This document shows positions 18,392 to 29,024 of a stretch of DNA of 52,218 nucleotides, in pieces. Numbering within the stretch: position 1 is the first letter of the stretch; each line of letters starts with the position of its first letter. This stretch comes from a virus: positions 1 through 52,218 of IMG/VR virus record IMGVR_UViG_3300048918_000472; one strand, written 5' to 3'. Below the pieces are notes generated by a model. The model saw only the letters and a list, made by a program, of their open reading frames with translations. It did not search any database and was not told the origin of the DNA. Position numbers and translations under genes: made by a program.

Positions 18392-18750
18392 CGATCAATA
18401 CGGCATTCTTCGACCAGATCGCGGACCAGGCGGCGCTGTGCCGCACGTGTGCGGACGTCCAGCGGCTCGCCGATAGTTGCGTGCCGCAGCTGAACGACTT
18501 ACTCGCGGCGATCGGCGTGCAGCAGTCGGTACTGGCTGGCGCGCAGGAATTGCTGACGTTGAACCCGGCGAATCTGGCCGATGTCATTTCGTTTATCGGC
18601 AAGCTGCAGACCGAATTGCTCGGCCCGATGCTTGCCGCTTACGCTAAGGTCGTCGCGCAGACCGCGGAGACGGCAACGGCAGTGACCGGCGCGATCGCGG
18701 CGATCGAAGCGACTGCGGCGGCGATACCGGGCTGCACGATTACGGTGTGA
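18388..18750 (+). CDS. Hypothetical helical protein, 120 aa
   Basis: Starts MTINTAFFDQIADQAALCRT and is almost wholly helical, Ala/Leu/Thr-rich, with two cysteines near residue 18-30. It follows the spike gene with an ATGA overlap and meets the minus-strand operon tail to tail (11-bp overlap at 18740). Possibly a baseplate or tail accessory; no family recognised. Confidence 0.62.
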   Translation: MTINTAFFDQIADQAALCRTCADVQRLADSCVPQLNDLLAAIGVQQSVLAGAQELLTLNPANLADVISFIGKLQTELLGPMLAAYAKVVAQTAETATAVTGAIAAIEATAAAIPGCTITV

Positions 18751-18919: not shown

Positions 18920-19089
18920 TGTCCGCCCTCCTCGTCCGTTTCGAACCGACCGCCGCGCCACGTCCCGCAGCCGCGTACCGGCAACAATTCGCGATCGCCG
19001 TCGGCGCGTACGGTCCGCAGCGACCCGCGTAAGGGCGGCCTGCCGAACACGCGCAGGACGTGCTGGTATGTCTGGCGGCGGGCGGTCAC
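18916..19089 (-). CDS. Small basic hypothetical protein, 57 aa
   Basis: GTG start at 19089 (GTGA overlap with the gene before it) and TGA at 18916-18918 overlapping the next start. Reads VTARRQTYQHVLRVFGRPPL, RELLPVRGCGTWRGGRFETD. Arg-rich with one central cysteine. The tight GTGA coupling at both ends supports it as a real gene in the minus operon; no function recognised. Confidence 0.6.
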   Translation of the reverse strand: MTARRQTYQHVLRVFGRPPLRGSLRTVRADGDRELLPVRGCGTWRGGRFETDEEGGQ

Positions 19090-19364
19090 AGCCCGATTCC
19101 CGCAGTGCGTTCTATTTCGTCCATATAACGGGCGATTTGTTCACGCAGCCACGGTTCGAAGTGGTCGCCACGCCACGAATTCTCGCCGAACGTCACGCCC
19201 GCACCGGGAAGTCGGTCAATCGAGATGACCGCAACTACGCCGGCCTCCGGGAAGACGGTAGCCAACGCATTGCCCGTTTCCGAGTCGTGGAACTGGATCG
19301 CGTAGAACGGCACGCCCGACACACCATTACGATGAAAGGCGATTTGCATAATCGATCGTTTCAT
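19086..19364 (-). CDS. Conserved phage hypothetical protein, 92 aa
   Basis: Starts MKRSIMQIAFHRNGVSGVPF; contains FHDSETGNALATVFPEAG, and the segment GVTFGENSWRGDHFEPWLRE. Proteins with the pattern IAFHRNGV...F..ELSWRGDRFEP-like occur widely in tailed phages without known function. The ATG overlaps the stop of the gene before it (ATGA). The longer frame upstream is Arg-rich and non-coding in appearance, so this start was chosen. Confidence 0.7.
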   Translation of the reverse strand: MKRSIMQIAFHRNGVSGVPFYAIQFHDSETGNALATVFPEAGVVAVISIDRLPGAGVTFGENSWRGDHFEPWLREQIARYMDEIERTAGIGL

Positions 19365-19519
19365 TTCGATTCTCCCGTCACCGTCGCGTCGTATAGCGCG
19401 GCCAGCTGCTCGGTCGTGACGTTCGCGAGGAACTGCGCGATTGCCGCTCGGGCGGCCACGCCGACGGTCAGGCCGGTCAGCGCGTCCAGCATACGGGCGG
19501 CTTTGTCGGAGGGGGTCAT
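19361..19519 (-). CDS. Small helical protein, 52 aa
   Basis: ATG at 19519 follows the previous stop with no gap; TGA 19361-19363 overlaps the next start. Reads MTPSDKAARMLDALTGLTVG, VTTEQLAALYDATVTGESK. Predicted all-helical; no family recognised. Second gene of the minus operon. Confidence 0.58.
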   Translation of the reverse strand: MTPSDKAARMLDALTGLTVGVAARAAIAQFLANVTTEQLAALYDATVTGESK

Positions 19520-19708
19520 TTACTTGGTTCCCTCGCAAGCGTTCCAACCCTTGACGAAATCGGAACGGCACCGGTCGTTCGTCGAGCGCATTCCGAAATG
19601 GCATCCGTAACTATCTCGCGGCATGCCGAGCGAGGCGGCCAGCGCGCCAGCGGCGAACGGGTGGTCGGTTTTCATCGCGTCGATGGTTTGGCGGTCGATC
19701 GTTTGCAT
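19520..19708 (-). CDS. Small hypothetical protein, 62 aa, first gene of the minus operon
   Basis: MQTIDRQTIDAMKTDHPFAA, then MPRDSYGCHFGMRSTNDRCR and KGWNACEGTK; three Cys residues in the second half, no standard zinc motif. It is the first gene after the palindromic control site at 19750-19767, with GAGGAACC upstream as ribosome site, so the five-gene operon probably starts here. Confidence 0.62.
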   Translation of the reverse strand: MQTIDRQTIDAMKTDHPFAAGALAASLGMPRDSYGCHFGMRSTNDRCRSDFVKGWNACEGTK

Positions 19709-19749
19709 CTCGTCGGTTCCTCGTTTCGATAACGAATCACCTAACGGGT

Positions 19750-19767
19750 ATTGACCGTGTCGTCAAT
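19750..19767. promoter_or_regulatory. Palindrome ATTGAC-N6-GTCAAT, site 1, with divergent promoter candidates
   Basis: Exact inverted repeat ATTGAC CGTGTC GTCAAT between the minus operon and the tmRNA terminator. Both arms supply a TTGAC -35-like hexamer. On the plus strand TTGACCG-N11-GCTAAAAT fits the Caulobacter housekeeping promoter pattern; on the minus strand it is followed by ACCCGTTAGG, the same bases that follow site 2 read on the minus strand. Could be an operator, a divergent promoter, or both. Confidence 0.65.
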
Positions 19768-19770
19768 GGC

Positions 19771-19814
19771 TAAAATGATACGGCCCGCGCCAATACTCCC
19801 AAACGCGGGCCGTA
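19771..19814 (-). terminator. Rho-independent terminator of the tmRNA gene
   Basis: Read on the minus strand, an 11-bp perfect stem TACGGCCCGCG (19814-19804) pairs with CGCGGGCCGTA (19789-19779) around a 14-nt loop and is followed by TCATTTT. It lies at the end of the tmRNA gene. The plus-strand promoter candidate at site 1 would place the same hairpin at the start of a plus transcript. Confidence 0.78.
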
Positions 19815-20330
19815 CCCGTCCGTCGCGCGTCTCTCCGGTTTGCAGACCGGGCCGACAAGTCGCGCGGGGCGCATAATATAACGATTGGTGTGGGAAGGAA
19901 AGCGGCCCGTTCTGTTGCTACGCCGGGACCATGCGCCATCGAATTACGCCGCTGCGCGGGCATCCGAAATGTAATTGTCATTTGCGACAGTTACGGTTTT
20001 GGGCGTTAGGGTGCTCCGTCCCGGCCGCGTTCCGTTTCTCTCCGCGCAGTCGATCCTGTTTCGCCCCCATCAATACCAGCGGTTTCATCGTTCAGTATTC
20101 GGCGGCGCCGCCTAGTCCCTACTAGATCGCTATTCGGTGACGGTCCATGGAATCCCGTCATTTATCCGGCTAGTTTCTGGATTGGAGTCCAGTCTGGTCC
20201 GGCCGATGCTCGCCCAATTGCGTTAGGGTCCGCTGGTAATGGTGGAGGCGGCGGGCACTGCCCCCGCGTCCTTGCGCTTTAATCAACAGACCGAATTACG
20301 GCCATATCTCGACAAGTGCCAACTCGTCGC
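19815..20330 (-). ncRNA. ssrA: Two-piece, circularly permuted tmRNA
   Basis: Gene order on the minus strand is acceptor piece, intervening segment (20239-20069), coding piece, as in alphaproteobacterial permuted ssrA. Acceptor piece ends GGAC (20271-68), T-arm GCGGG / loop GGCAGTG / CCCGC (20267-20251), CGCCTCC (20250-20244), ACCA (20243-20240). Coding piece starts at 20068 with GGGGGCGAAACAGGATCGAC. Acceptor stem GGGGGCG pairs fully with CGCCTCC and keeps G3-U, the alanine identity pair. Helix UGCGC (20048-20044) pairs with GCGCA (20277-20273) across the two pieces. The tag ORF follows at 19985-19944. Outer ends are approximate. Function: rescue of stalled ribosomes and tagging of unfinished proteins. 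Confidence 0.92.
19944..19985 (-). other. tmRNA proteolysis-tag reading frame
   Basis: After the resume context ACTGTC the codons GCA AAT GAC AAT ... GCG GCG TAA encode ANDNYISDARAAA. The ANDN start is standard for proteobacterial tags; the end RAAA differs from the usual hydrophobic -LAA or -VAA end. Confidence 0.9.
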
Positions 20331-20336
20331 TCGACT

Positions 20337-20413
20337 CGGTACGCCTCTCGTCCGAGTCGTGTCAATACCCGCCGCTAGACCGGCCCGCACCGACCGTGCT
20401 ACACATTCCGGCA
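20337..20413. promoter_or_regulatory. Divergent control region between tmRNA and baseplate operon
   Basis: On the minus strand GGGTATTGACACG (TTGACA at 20365-20360) is a -35-like element placed to start the tmRNA precursor. On the plus strand the same place reads GTCAATACCCGCCGCTAGACC; GTCAATACCCG repeats the right half of palindrome site 1 (minus) and GCTAGACC resembles the Caulobacter -10 GCTANAWC, placed to serve the gene at 20413. Promoter calls are by pattern only. Confidence 0.45.
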
Positions 20414-20763
20414 TGTCGTCCACGCTCCTGCTCGACCGGCTCGTCTGGGATCTCGTCGTCGACGCGTCGGGCAATATCGCGCTTGCGACCGAGCCGTACA
20501 GCCAGATACAGGACGCGGCGAGTGCGGCCCGCACGTTCGAAGGCGAGCCGTGGTACGATATCAGTCTCGGCCTGCCGTATTTCGATCAGATTCTGGGGCG
20601 CCTGCAACCGATCCAGGTATTCCGCGCGCGGGCCGTTCAAGCCGCGCTGACGGTGCCGGGGGTGACGGACGCTAAAGTCGTGATTACAGCCTATTCGAAG
20701 CGTGCTATTACCGGCCAGCTGCAAATCCGCACGGACGCTGGCGTACAGGGGGCCTCGTTTTGA
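20413..20763 (+). CDS. Baseplate wedge protein, gp25-like, 116 aa
   Basis: ATG at 20413 gives MSSTLLLDRLVWDLVVDASG; then IALATEPYSQIQDAASAART, FEGEPWYDISLGLPYFDQIL, LRPIQVFRARAVQAAL-type segment, VPGVTDAKVVI. This is the layout of the gp25/GPW-like wedge protein that precedes baseplate J. An upstream in-frame extension to 20239 is antisense to the tmRNA acceptor piece and is rejected. Overlaps the J gene start. Confidence 0.78.
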   Translation: MSSTLLLDRLVWDLVVDASGNIALATEPYSQIQDAASAARTFEGEPWYDISLGLPYFDQILGRLQPIQVFRARAVQAALTVPGVTDAKVVITAYSKRAITGQLQIRTDAGVQGASF

Positions 20764-25778: not shown

Positions 25779-28700
25779 CTATGCCTTCCTGTATCGACGA
25801 CCGACCCAGCCGCCCGACGCTCGTATCGGCCACGGCGACCCGTCGGGCAGATACGCCCATGGCGGATTGCGTGACATGATCTCTTCGAATTCCTCGATCG
25901 ACCCGAAACCGTGCGGGACTTCAGCGACATTTTCGTCGTACACTTCCTGAACGATCGGGTAGCCCGCAGCTTCGTGCGCGGCCATCGAAAACCGCTGGAT
26001 ATCGTGGGCGATCGCCTGAACGGCATTCTCGAAAACGCGCGAGCCCCAGGTATCCATCCGAACCCAGCCGAGCGCGCCGTACTTTGGGTTCGTATTGTCG
26101 GTCATGTACGACATGGCGAGCGACCCGGGACGTTTCTCGCTCGGGCGCAGGCGCGGCTGGTGGTAGGTCAGCTGCCGACCGCTCGGGAGGGTCAGCTTCA
26201 GCCAGTCGCACGGCACGACGTCGGTCTGGACGCGCCAGCCGGACGATGGGTTATAGACCCAGCGCGACCGCTCGTACGACGTGTAATAACAGAACGACAG
26301 CGGCCCGACCGGCCAGTGCGTGCCGGGCGAGCGTATCGCCTGGATCATCGCGCCTTCGATCCCGTAGAGCTCGTCGCGCCACCAGCCGGATATCGGATCC
26401 TTGCGACGCTGGCCGCCCCACATTTCGACGATGCGCGGCGACGCCTCGCGCCACGCTAGGATGATCTCGGTCAGCTGCGCGTCGGTTTTGTTCGCTTCGT
26501 CCGGGTCGAACGCACGCCACGATCCGATCCAGCCGCCGAACCCGCAATTGTGGACGAGCAGATGCCCGCTATCCGTGCGGATCGTGAACCGGTTCTGCGG
26601 CCCCGCATTTGCAATGTCGTAGACACGACTCGTACAGATCGACGAGTGCCTGAAGTTCGACGACGGATCGTTTATTCGACATGTTCGCGGCGCGAGTAAT
26701 GAACCGCAGATTCCCCGGTTCGTAATTGCCGTGCGTGCGGATTCGATCCATTTCCAAAACCGGGTCGTCCCAGCCGGGGAGAGTAACGAGGTAGGCGAGA
26801 AACGCACGTCGCCCCTTCGTTCCCTCTGTCCATGGCTCGTAGACCTTGATTCCCCGGCCGCCGTAATTGCGGTAACGTGGGTCGGTCGTCCCGGGTTTGC
26901 AACGCGTGAGACAAGCAGCGATCCGGTTAAGGAGGCGCCGACGGTGTGCGGGATGCTCGACAATATCGGTATAGCCCCAATAGTTTTTTCGATGCCGACT
27001 GACGCGCTCTCGCGAACAACCTGGGCAACTGACGACACCGCCTTTGCGAAGCCGATGCCATCCCGACCGAAACAGCGGCCCGTCACAGTCGCAAAGCAAA
27101 ACGATTTGGTGCTCGCGCGGTGCAGGTTCCAAGCCGACGACGGTAAGCTGGCCGAACCTGTCGCCAAAGCCTGGCAAAGGGAATTTTCGTCGGAAGCGAG
27201 TGTCGATGCCGGAAGCCAGAAACCGTTGGTATTCACCAGATGATCCGGGGTTATCTTCACTCCATCCAGTGGGATAACGGTGCGATACCCCTTGAAAATC
27301 ACGCCGTCGTGCTCGACCCATCGTTCCCCGTCCCATAGCCTGTCCGTTGGTAAGACGTCTGGTATGGCGACATAGCCCCTGTTTGTCAAAACTTGGGTAA
27401 GCGGCCCGAAGCAAGCGAGTTCCGAAATTTTGCCTATAAGCTGGCGATCTGGGTGCGGCTCGCCGTGCGCCGCTTGGTAGGCTTCATACTCGTCGAGTGT
27501 TCGCCCCGTGATATTCGCGGCACCCGCCAGATAGATATCGCGGCGCGCGCGGAACACGTCGATCCGCCATTGCTCGCCCGAGATGCACGCCGCCACGACT
27601 GCTTCGATCGCACTGTAATCCGATGCGATCAGATCGTGCCCCGGCGCCGCGACGAACAGCCCGCGGATACAGCCCTGCAGCACGCGCTGGACGTCGCCGA
27701 AAAACTGTTCGACCATATCGAGCGAGCGGAACGCCATGATTTCCAGAACGTGATCCTGCATTTCGATCCGCCAGGCGGGTTTCGCCGCGGTCCGCTCGGT
27801 CGCGCCGCACCATGGACACGATACTGCGTCGGGGCGGTACGGGCGTCCGCACGGCGCGCATACGACCAGTTTCGGCCCGATCTTAACCAAGTTCGTCGTT
27901 TGCACCCCTTCGCCCGTCGGACGGCCCGTACGCGTGCCGTGATGCACGAACAGCCCGCGCAGCCGATCGTCGGCGCTCGCCCGGTGTTCGATCGCGTAGA
28001 GCTTCTTCACGCCGGCCGAACCGACCAGTGCGCGGATTTCGAGCACGCGCCGAACGTCGTCGGGCAGGTCGGTTCGCTGCAGTTCGATTTCGAGCGGCTG
28101 TTTTTTCTGATCGAACGACCAGATCCCGCCGACCCCGCGCGCGACGATCCACCCGAGCAGCTTTTCGCCCTGCGATACGCCGATACCGCCGGTCAGCCGC
28201 TCGCACTCTGAACCGTACCGCTCGAGCAGCTGTTCCAGTACGGCGATACAGTCACGCACTGCAGGCCGGTCGACGGCCAGCCCGCGCCAGTTTATCGCTT
28301 GGTCCTGTAGCCACGCGACCCGTTCGGGCAGCGTCATCGGTTCCATACGATCAGCGGCCGATTCTTCGGCGAGTACGTCGCGATCGCAATACAGGTGGTA
28401 ACGGTCGAACAGTTCGGGCACCGACGCGAGCGCGCCGGCGAACCGGACCGGTTTCGGGTCGTTCAGATAGATACGGGTGCGATCGTCGGTTTTGGTCGGA
28501 TTGCGCGGCTTCGAGAATATGTCCATCAGGCGTTTGCCGTCCGGGTCTTTCTGGAAATCCGTGTCGAGCGCTTCCCCCAGTCGCTCGAGCGCCCCGGGAT
28601 AGCCGTTGACGTGCGCCGTCGCGAGCGAACAGTGTACCCGATCGTGCGCGAGCGGCGGCCAGCCGTGGCGCGCGACGAGTACGTGATGCCAGCCGAGCTT

Positions 28701-29024
28701 TTCGAACATCGCGTTGTGAAATTCGATATGGCCGCCCTGTTCGAGCCACTCGCGCAGTGGCGCGGGCATCGGCTGGCCTGGGCGCCACCGATCGACCGTA
28801 CCGACCGGCCAGTGCGGCAGGCGATACGATAGGCAGAGTATCTCGGCGGTCGGGTGCTCCCAGTACGGCGCGGCACCGACGACGGGCAGACCGATTTTGT
28901 TTTTTGGTGCGCCCGCCGGTCGGGTCCATTTGCCGTCCGCCCAGTGAAACCCGGCGAACGAAATCGCTTCGACGTCGAGCGTCGCGCAGGGCGGCGTGAC
29001 GTATGTCACGTCAGGGGCGCCCAC
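25779..29024 (-). CDS. Family A DNA polymerase with 3'-5' exonuclease domain and intein, 1081 aa precursor
   Basis: Replicative polymerase. Exonuclease domain: LDVE (D17, E19), FHNAMFEKLGW (N104 region) and YCDRDV (about 212-217). Motif A is SDYSAIEAV (about 468-477); motif B is RQLIGKISELA followed by CGFGGWIG, split by the intein after A537; motif C is VYDENVAE (D1030, E1031). A Cys4-type insert (CAPCGRPYRPDAVSCPWCG) lies at about 389-407. Removing residues 538-826 leaves a 792-aa mature enzyme with motif B restored, normal for phage polymerases. It is part of the minus-strand early operon and overlaps the upstream gene by 19 bp. Confidence 0.92.
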   Translation of the reverse strand: MGAPDVTYVTPPCATLDVEAISFAGFHWADGKWTRPAGAPKNKIGLPVVGAAPYWEHPTAEILCLSYRLPHWPVGTVDRWRPGQPMPAPLREWLEQGGHIEFHNAMFEKLGWHHVLVARHGWPPLAHDRVHCSLATAHVNGYPGALERLGEALDTDFQKDPDGKRLMDIFSKPRNPTKTDDRTRIYLNDPKPVRFAGALASVPELFDRYHLYCDRDVLAEESAADRMEPMTLPERVAWLQDQAINWRGLAVDRPAVRDCIAVLEQLLERYGSECERLTGGIGVSQGEKLLGWIVARGVGGIWSFDQKKQPLEIELQRTDLPDDVRRVLEIRALVGSAGVKKLYAIEHRASADDRLRGLFVHHGTRTGRPTGEGVQTTNLVKIGPKLVVCAPCGRPYRPDAVSCPWCGATERTAAKPAWRIEMQDHVLEIMAFRSLDMVEQFFGDVQRVLQGCIRGLFVAAPGHDLIASDYSAIEAVVAACISGEQWRIDVFRARRDIYLAGAANITGRTLDEYEAYQAAHGEPHPDRQLIGKISELACFGPLTQVLTNRGYVAIPDVLPTDRLWDGERWVEHDGVIFKGYRTVIPLDGVKITPDHLVNTNGFWLPASTLASDENSLCQALATGSASLPSSAWNLHRASTKSFCFATVTGRCFGRDGIGFAKAVSSVAQVVRESASVGIEKTIGAIPILSSIPHTVGASLTGSLLVSRVANPGRPTHVTAITAAGESRSTSHGQRERRGDVRFSPTSLLSPAGTTRFWKWIESARTAITNRGICGSLLAPRTCRINDPSSNFRHSSICTSRVYDIANAGPQNRFTIRTDSGHLLVHNCGFGGWIGSWRAFDPDEANKTDAQLTEIILAWREASPRIVEMWGGQRRKDPISGWWRDELYGIEGAMIQAIRSPGTHWPVGPLSFCYYTSYERSRWVYNPSSGWRVQTDVVPCDWLKLTLPSGRQLTYHQPRLRPSEKRPGSLAMSYMTDNTNPKYGALGWVRMDTWGSRVFENAVQAIAHDIQRFSMAAHEAAGYPIVQEVYDENVAEVPHGFGSIEEFEEIMSRNPPWAYLPDGSPWPIRASGGWVGRRYRKA
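26547..27413 (-). mobile_element. Intein in polymerase motif B, 289 aa
   Basis: Polymerase residues 538-826. Block A starts at Cys538 (CFGPLTQVLTNRGYVAIPDV), block B has the T-x-x-H motif ITPDHLV (T592, H595), block F is RVYDIANAG (D803), block G is LLVHN with Asn826 followed by the extein Cys827. All residues needed for protein splicing are present. Between blocks B and F (about 616-790) the intein frame shows no LAGLIDADG or HNH domain and is rich in S, T, R and A like a shadow frame; the endonuclease is in another frame (26569-27321). Confidence 0.92.
26569..27321 (-). CDS. HNH homing endonuclease encoded out of frame inside the intein, about 250 aa
   Basis: This frame is shifted by -1 from the polymerase/intein frame. 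It contains FGDRFGQLTVVGLEPAPREH, a CDC...CPGC zinc-type segment (LLCDCDGPLFRSGWHRLRKG, VVSCPGCSRE), then DPRYRNYGGRGIKVYEPW and LEMDRIRTHGNYEPGNLRFI, the standard order of phage HNH homing endonucleases. The conserved part (27177-26665) exactly fills the space between splicing blocks B and F. The frame is open over the whole intein (first ATG at 27414, the intein border) and stops 22 bp before its end. ATG 27321, with GGGGA three bases upstream, is the likely start; frameshifting from the intein frame is an alternative. Confidence 0.8.
   Translation of the reverse strand: MGRARRRDFQGVSHRYPTGWSEDNPGSSGEYQRFLASGIDTRFRRKFPLPGFGDRFGQLTVVGLEPAPREHQIVLLCDCDGPLFRSGWHRLRKGGVVSCPGCSRERVSRHRKNYWGYTDIVEHPAHRRRLLNRIAACLTRCKPGTTDPRYRNYGGRGIKVYEPWTEGTKGRRAFLAYLVTLPGWDDPVLEMDRIRTHGNYEPGNLRFITRAANMSNKRSVVELQALVDLYESCLRHCKCGAAEPVHDPHG

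Follow-up and report, generated by a model that had tools for sequence, protein, structure and literature searches.

Does the minus strand between the baseplate genes of this phage carry a complete two-piece tmRNA gene, and what would such an RNA do for the virus? The initial annotation had read a circularly permuted tmRNA at this place without giving its strand. Our sequence analysis confirms that the minus strand from 19900 to 20330 is a complete, phage-borne, circularly permuted tmRNA gene of the alphaproteobacterial type, and all its elements lie on that strand.

A permuted tmRNA gene between baseplate genes

The window, that is, the whole stretch of 52,218 bases analysed here (63% G+C), corresponds to one entire virus record, a 52-kb contig from a phage that has a contractile tail and encodes a DNA polymerase of its own. 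Its genes code for a tail sheath, tape measure, baseplate hub and wedge, head protease, major head protein, portal and terminase, and for a helicase, primase, exonuclease and DNA polymerase. The terminase is nearest to those of Burkholderia phages (61%) and the baseplate J protein to that of an Acetobacter phage (51.5%); judged from the type of tmRNA alone, the host is probably an alphaproteobacterium. The tmRNA gene runs antisense within a gap that opens where baseplate-region genes end, near 18750, and that is followed by a wedge gene downstream. Since only residues 59–169 of the wedge reading frame (20239–20763) give a match, its true start is probably near 20413. Within the same gap, the tmRNA is followed by small minus-strand reading frames (19086–19708) without family matches. 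Elsewhere in the window, the family A DNA polymerase reading frame (25779–29024, minus strand) contains an apparent intein, a segment from CFGPLTQVLTNRG to LLVHN before CGFGGW, and its residues 557–839 match a phage 'endonuclease' profile.

At gathering thresholds, an Rfam scan of the window gave two matches only, both to the tmRNA gene: RF04321 (tmRNA_permuted) at 20303–19944, minus strand, with 91.6 bits (cut-off 47, E 1.9e-16) over the full model (1–213), and RF01849 (alpha_tmRNA), the model named in the initial annotation as a check on its reading, at 20323–19950, minus strand, with 86.4 bits (cut-off 50, E 4.2e-22). It is these two models, together with the context (the virus record coincides with the window, and baseplate genes stand on either side of the gene), that bear out a permuted, two-piece tmRNA on phage DNA. 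ARAGORN called no tmRNA in the window, so standard annotation would overlook the gene.

The order of the parts is that of a permuted gene (Table 1), with the CCA-bearing 3΄ half of the acceptor (CCA at 20240) ahead of the 5΄ half (GGGGGCG at 20068). Both ends and the 171-nt spacer had been proposed before, and they are exact in the sequence; the acceptor pairs, the T-stem, the first cross-piece helix and the tag frame that were claimed with them are likewise all present. The acceptor stem has seven pairs (GGGGGCG, 20068–20062, with CGCCUCC, 20250–20244), among them G3-U, the alanine identity pair, and is followed by ACCA to 20240. The T-arm reads GCGGG-GGCAGUG-CCCGC. The two pieces are joined by the P2 helix, which begins with UGCGC (20048–20044) and GCGCA (20277–20273) and continues, with internal loops between, through AACGGA (20036–20031) with UCUGUU (20290–20285) and CGGCC (20027–20023) with GGCCG (20303–20299). 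The hairpin ahead of UAUGGC is the counterpart of the first hairpin of RF01849, and the PK1 stem-1 region is gapped in the RF04321 alignment. The tag frame starts with an ANDN motif and closes with a stop codon, and 25 nt past this stop lies GCAACAGAA, the conserved alphaproteobacterial 3΄ element. The hairpin that holds this element is supported by the conserved motif and not by energy, because the stretch folds no better than shuffled sequences; the full precursor folds modestly better than its shuffles (z -2.0).

Table 1. Coordinates of the tmRNA gene and of its flanking signals in the window
Feature	Positions	Strand	Basis and remarks
Whole permuted tmRNA precursor (acceptor piece, intervening segment, coding piece)	19893..20330	-	RF04321 and RF01849; ends extended by the 5΄ hairpin and the 3΄ GCAACAGAA; outer ends approximate
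Acceptor piece: 5΄ hairpin (20329–20310), UAUGGC, P2 strands, T-arm, acceptor 3΄ strand (20250–20244), encoded CCA to 20240	20240..20330	-	Rfam and sequence; 5΄ end approximate
Intervening segment, 171 nt, presumably removed in processing	20069..20239	-	Rfam and sequence
Coding piece: 5΄ GGGGGCG, GAAACAGGATCGAC, P2 strands, PK1 region, tag frame, 3΄ hairpin	19900..20068	-	Rfam and sequence; 3΄ end approximate
Tag reading frame, ANDNYISDARAAA, from resume codon GCA (19985) to TAA (ending at 19944)	19944..19985	-	Rfam and sequence
3΄ hairpin GGUCCCG / CGGGCC with GCAACAGAA (19918–19910) in the loop	19904..19930	-	Sequence; GCAACAGAA also at the RF01849 3΄ end
Precursor clamp, 5΄ arm: CGCCTCCACCATTACCAGCGG	20230..20250	-	21-nt arm; pairing and covariation
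Precursor clamp, 3΄ arm: flank CCGCTGGTATTGAT and GGGGGCG	20062..20082	-	21-nt arm, 86% complementary to 20230–20250
Probable terminator: 15-bp stem, then ATCATTTTAG	19775..19818	-	Inverted repeat and folding (15-bp stem within 19765–19850; U-poor tail AUCAUUUUAG)
TTGACA, possible -35 element	20360..20365	-	Sequence

The precursor clamp and the flanking signals

In the precursor, the acceptor stem extends through the CCA into a perfect 9-bp helix (UACCAGCGG/CCGCUGGUA), forming a clamp that would hold both processing sites together. We compared such clamps across 88 distinct permuted loci from virus contigs, isolate phages and cellular genomes. The mean pairing energy is -15.9 kcal/mol when both arms come from one locus and -6.2 kcal/mol when arms are exchanged among loci; the p of about 1e-43 is overstated, since the loci are related by descent. 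The clamp of the window reaches -19.5 kcal/mol, a value attained by 0.3% of the swapped pairs. The arm sequences differ strongly among loci and still match each other, which amounts to compensatory change, and this covariation of the clamp speaks for a route of processing shared among permuted tmRNAs. We make no claim of novelty for it.

The signals around the gene are less distinct. A terminator had been proposed downstream, and a 15-bp stem makes it plausible; it is unproven, as the tail is U-poor and a consensus scan did not flag the stem. Upstream, the TTGACA has no convincing -10 element at 16–18 nt, and the consensus scan gave no promoter hit on the minus strand ahead of the tmRNA gene. 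On either side of the tmRNA region stands one copy of a perfect inverted repeat of 11 nt, CGGGTATTGAC (19745–19755 and 20361–20371); we set it aside as the boundary of a mobile cassette, as it is just 11 nt long and both copies contain the -35-like TTGAC. In the window as a whole, GGTATTGAC, allowing up to one mismatch, occurs more often than expected (20 observed, 8 expected).

Relatives of the phage gene

Two-piece phage tmRNA is already published as a kind, and the gene described here is a further, divergent copy. The 2022 survey found tmRNA in 402 of 18,146 phages, with 133 unique structures, 53 of which, in isolate phages, were suggested by ARAGORN to be two-piece (PMC9004378); the accessible text on the 2025 tmRNA database gives 79 unique phage tmRNA sequences, all forms together (PMC11915505), and tmRNAs whose form is not stated have been reported in Bradyrhizobium elkanii phages (PMC12656738). 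Distant BLAST searches found related genes in alphaproteobacterial phages, and Rfam confirmed them in 11 isolates: Mesorhizobium phage Cp1R7A-A1, Erythrobacter phages L02 and XM05, Rhodobacter phages RcRudolph, RcSimone-Hastad and RcXuper, roseophages DSS3_MAL1, MD18, V10 and DSS3P8, and Caulobacter phage CcrPW. Our motif parser read four of these 11 genes, and the other seven rest on Rfam. In the stretches viewed, a tmRNA feature is annotated in one of the 11 records (DSS3_MAL1, an ssrA of the permuted form). The background given in the initial annotation, that a few phages carry one-piece tmRNAs, is thus outdated. In addition, virus contigs contain one exact 20-mer of the coding piece in at least 119 stretches; some of these contigs may carry cellular flanks.

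The gene shares with Caulobacter ssrA and the cellular members of RF01849 and RF04321 the gene order, the G3-U acceptor stem, the T-arm, GAAACAGGATCGAC, an ANDN-type tag, the 3΄ GCAACAGAA and the encoded CCA. It differs from them in being phage-borne, in its spacer (171 nt, against 3–75 nt in the parsed cellular loci), in the RAAA end of its tag and in its sequence, which is at best about 64% identical to the cellular genes sampled. Like the tmRNAs of Methylophilales phage Melnitz and Pelagibacter phage Mosig (PMC9004378), it is a phage-encoded permuted ssrA of the alphaproteobacterial type; unlike them, it lies in a different, smaller contractile-tail phage and has no glutamine riboswitch, the Rfam scan giving the tmRNA matches alone. 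With the 11 isolate-phage genes it shares the Rfam families, a low RF01849 score (86 bits in the window and 67–113 in the isolate phages, against 224–303 for the cellular genes of four genomes) and, in three of the four that were parsed, a short 3΄ region; theirs are found in phages of about 63–308 kb and, where parsed, have LAA tag ends and spacers of 93–98 nt. As a trait of phages only, the short region after the tag was ruled out, many cellular genes having it too.

Where does this copy come from? Megablast with 24 kb of the phage found no relative, and a permuted tmRNA was found in none of 50 records of related phages, many of them fragments (15 related by the baseplate J protein, 35 by terminase or primase); the tmRNA is evidently patchy cargo across the wider phage group. 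In 385 alphaproteobacterial genomes no cellular donor was found, the matches being mostly short core matches of about 30–70 nt, and the closest sampled cellular gene has about 64% identity over 166 positions. A FastTree phylogeny puts the gene in a group of four, together with the copy of the Mesorhizobium phage and those of two virus contigs (support 0.906 for the group, only 0.30 for the inner node); built on short sequences, this tree does no more than suggest that the copy is long established in phages and was not captured recently from one of the hosts sampled. The gene is peculiar in its rare RAAA tag end, in its strong divergence from cellular copies and in being absent from the phages whose structural genes are nearest.

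Some of the relatives have neighbours of their own. Erythrobacter phages L02 and XM05 both have the permuted tmRNA within a cluster of tRNA genes, and a short way downstream of it follows a gene annotated as proteasome subunit or HslV-family peptidase; phage tag and phage protease could act as a pair. In four roseophages a GOLLD RNA (RF02032) is found a little upstream of the permuted tmRNA. On a virus contig of 52,839 bases, the stretch 2252–2390 resembles the acceptor and the beginning of the coding piece of a tmRNA and has a strong clamp, with no recognisable tag frame and a match to RF01849 positions 90–166 only; it may be a permuted tmRNA that has decayed or lacks a tag.

Function of the RNA and the competing explanations

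What is the role of this RNA during infection? We propose that the gene encodes a functional two-piece tmRNA that would perform ordinary trans-translation with host factors, and give this reading a probability of about 0.85. The minus-strand transcript would fold on the clamp, host RNase P would cut the 5΄ end at 20068, and host 3΄ tRNA-processing nucleases would expose the CCA at 20240, releasing the spacer and leaving two RNAs that would remain paired. Host AlaRS, EF-Tu and SmpB would use this two-piece RNA to rescue ribosomes on truncated mRNAs; rescue would add A-ANDNYISDARAAA and recycle ribosomes in the infected cell, and the phage would benefit when truncated mRNAs accumulate. No SmpB was found in the 52,218-base record, so that of the host would have to serve. 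Reliance on host processing, put forward in the initial annotation, is a fair inference from the gene; the sustained translation and redirected tagging suggested along with it are speculation, akin to that already published.

We favour this explanation because of the Rfam scores, the clamp pairing and the presence of all diagnostic elements, which are read from the sequence: the order of acceptor, spacer and coding piece, a tRNA-like domain with G3-U, an encoded CCA, a resume codon with its tag frame, the 3΄ element and the clamp. The same gene form in Mesorhizobium, Erythrobacter, Rhodobacter, Ruegeria, Phaeobacter and Caulobacter phages and the FastTree grouping argue for it too, as do the central position among baseplate genes and the lack of a tyrosine integrase. 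Against it count the lack of a convincing -10, the low RF01849 score and a precursor z of only -2.0.

The alternatives turn largely on the tag. Its end is RAAA, where a protease signal of the LAA or VAA type would be expected. Among 116 parsable tags of virus contigs (52 distinct), 108 end in LAA and one in AAA, and the pattern ANDN...AAA matches in 20 of 385 alphaproteobacterial genomes, a few of the matches off-frame; as a fingerprint of the host it was rejected, since the matches are scattered and not conclusive. Rarity of this kind would suit a decoy or modulator that either acts as a competitor of the host tmRNA, with SmpB or AlaRS as the object, or puts in place of the host tag one that host proteases see poorly, and so gives rescue without normal proteolysis. 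Inhibition of tmRNA by a molecule that resembles the TLD-only tmRNA of mycobacteriophage DS6A is described in PMC4131195 and PMC11915505. DS6A also encodes a tRNA-like domain, but its tmRNA is tag-less, whereas the copy in the window is two-piece with a full tag frame. Moreover, in-frame RAAA tags exist in cellular tmRNA genes (ANDNYAGELRAAA, ANDNFAPVRAAA), so this end is not foreign to hosts, and we consider a decoy unlikely. Given this precedent, we do not take the RAAA end to show that tagged proteins meet a new fate; they are probably still degraded, perhaps less efficiently, the end resembling a minority of cellular alphaproteobacterial tags. That host SmpB would recycle the ribosomes while host proteases or adaptors handle the tag poorly, rescue being uncoupled from proteolysis and tagged proteins spared or redirected, seems less likely still.

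A low covariance score may reflect decay as well as specialisation, and the gene might be a non-functional passenger, a decaying host ssrA acquired by recombination; the lack of a clear promoter and the absence from the 50 related records would fit. We regard this as very improbable, because the tag frame is open, the acceptor and P2 pairings are intact and the strong clamp is of the gene's own sequence; with no close cellular donor, the gene would have persisted intact over long divergence. An ssrA fragment left as the attP of a temperate phage, suggested by the common use of ssrA as an integration site in the literature (PMC9004378, PMC11915505), is largely refuted and has a negligible probability, as the gene is complete with both pieces, lies inside the tail cluster and has no tyrosine integrase beside it (no PF00589 match in the record).

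The finding of one annotated tmRNA feature among 11 model-confirmed isolate records, within the stretches viewed, shows that annotation overlooks many phage tmRNAs. The divergent copy described here, missed by ARAGORN, adds to the increasing number of two-piece tmRNAs known from phages. The reason why phages encode RNAs for ribosome rescue could be addressed in isolates, for example in the Rhodobacter or Caulobacter phages.
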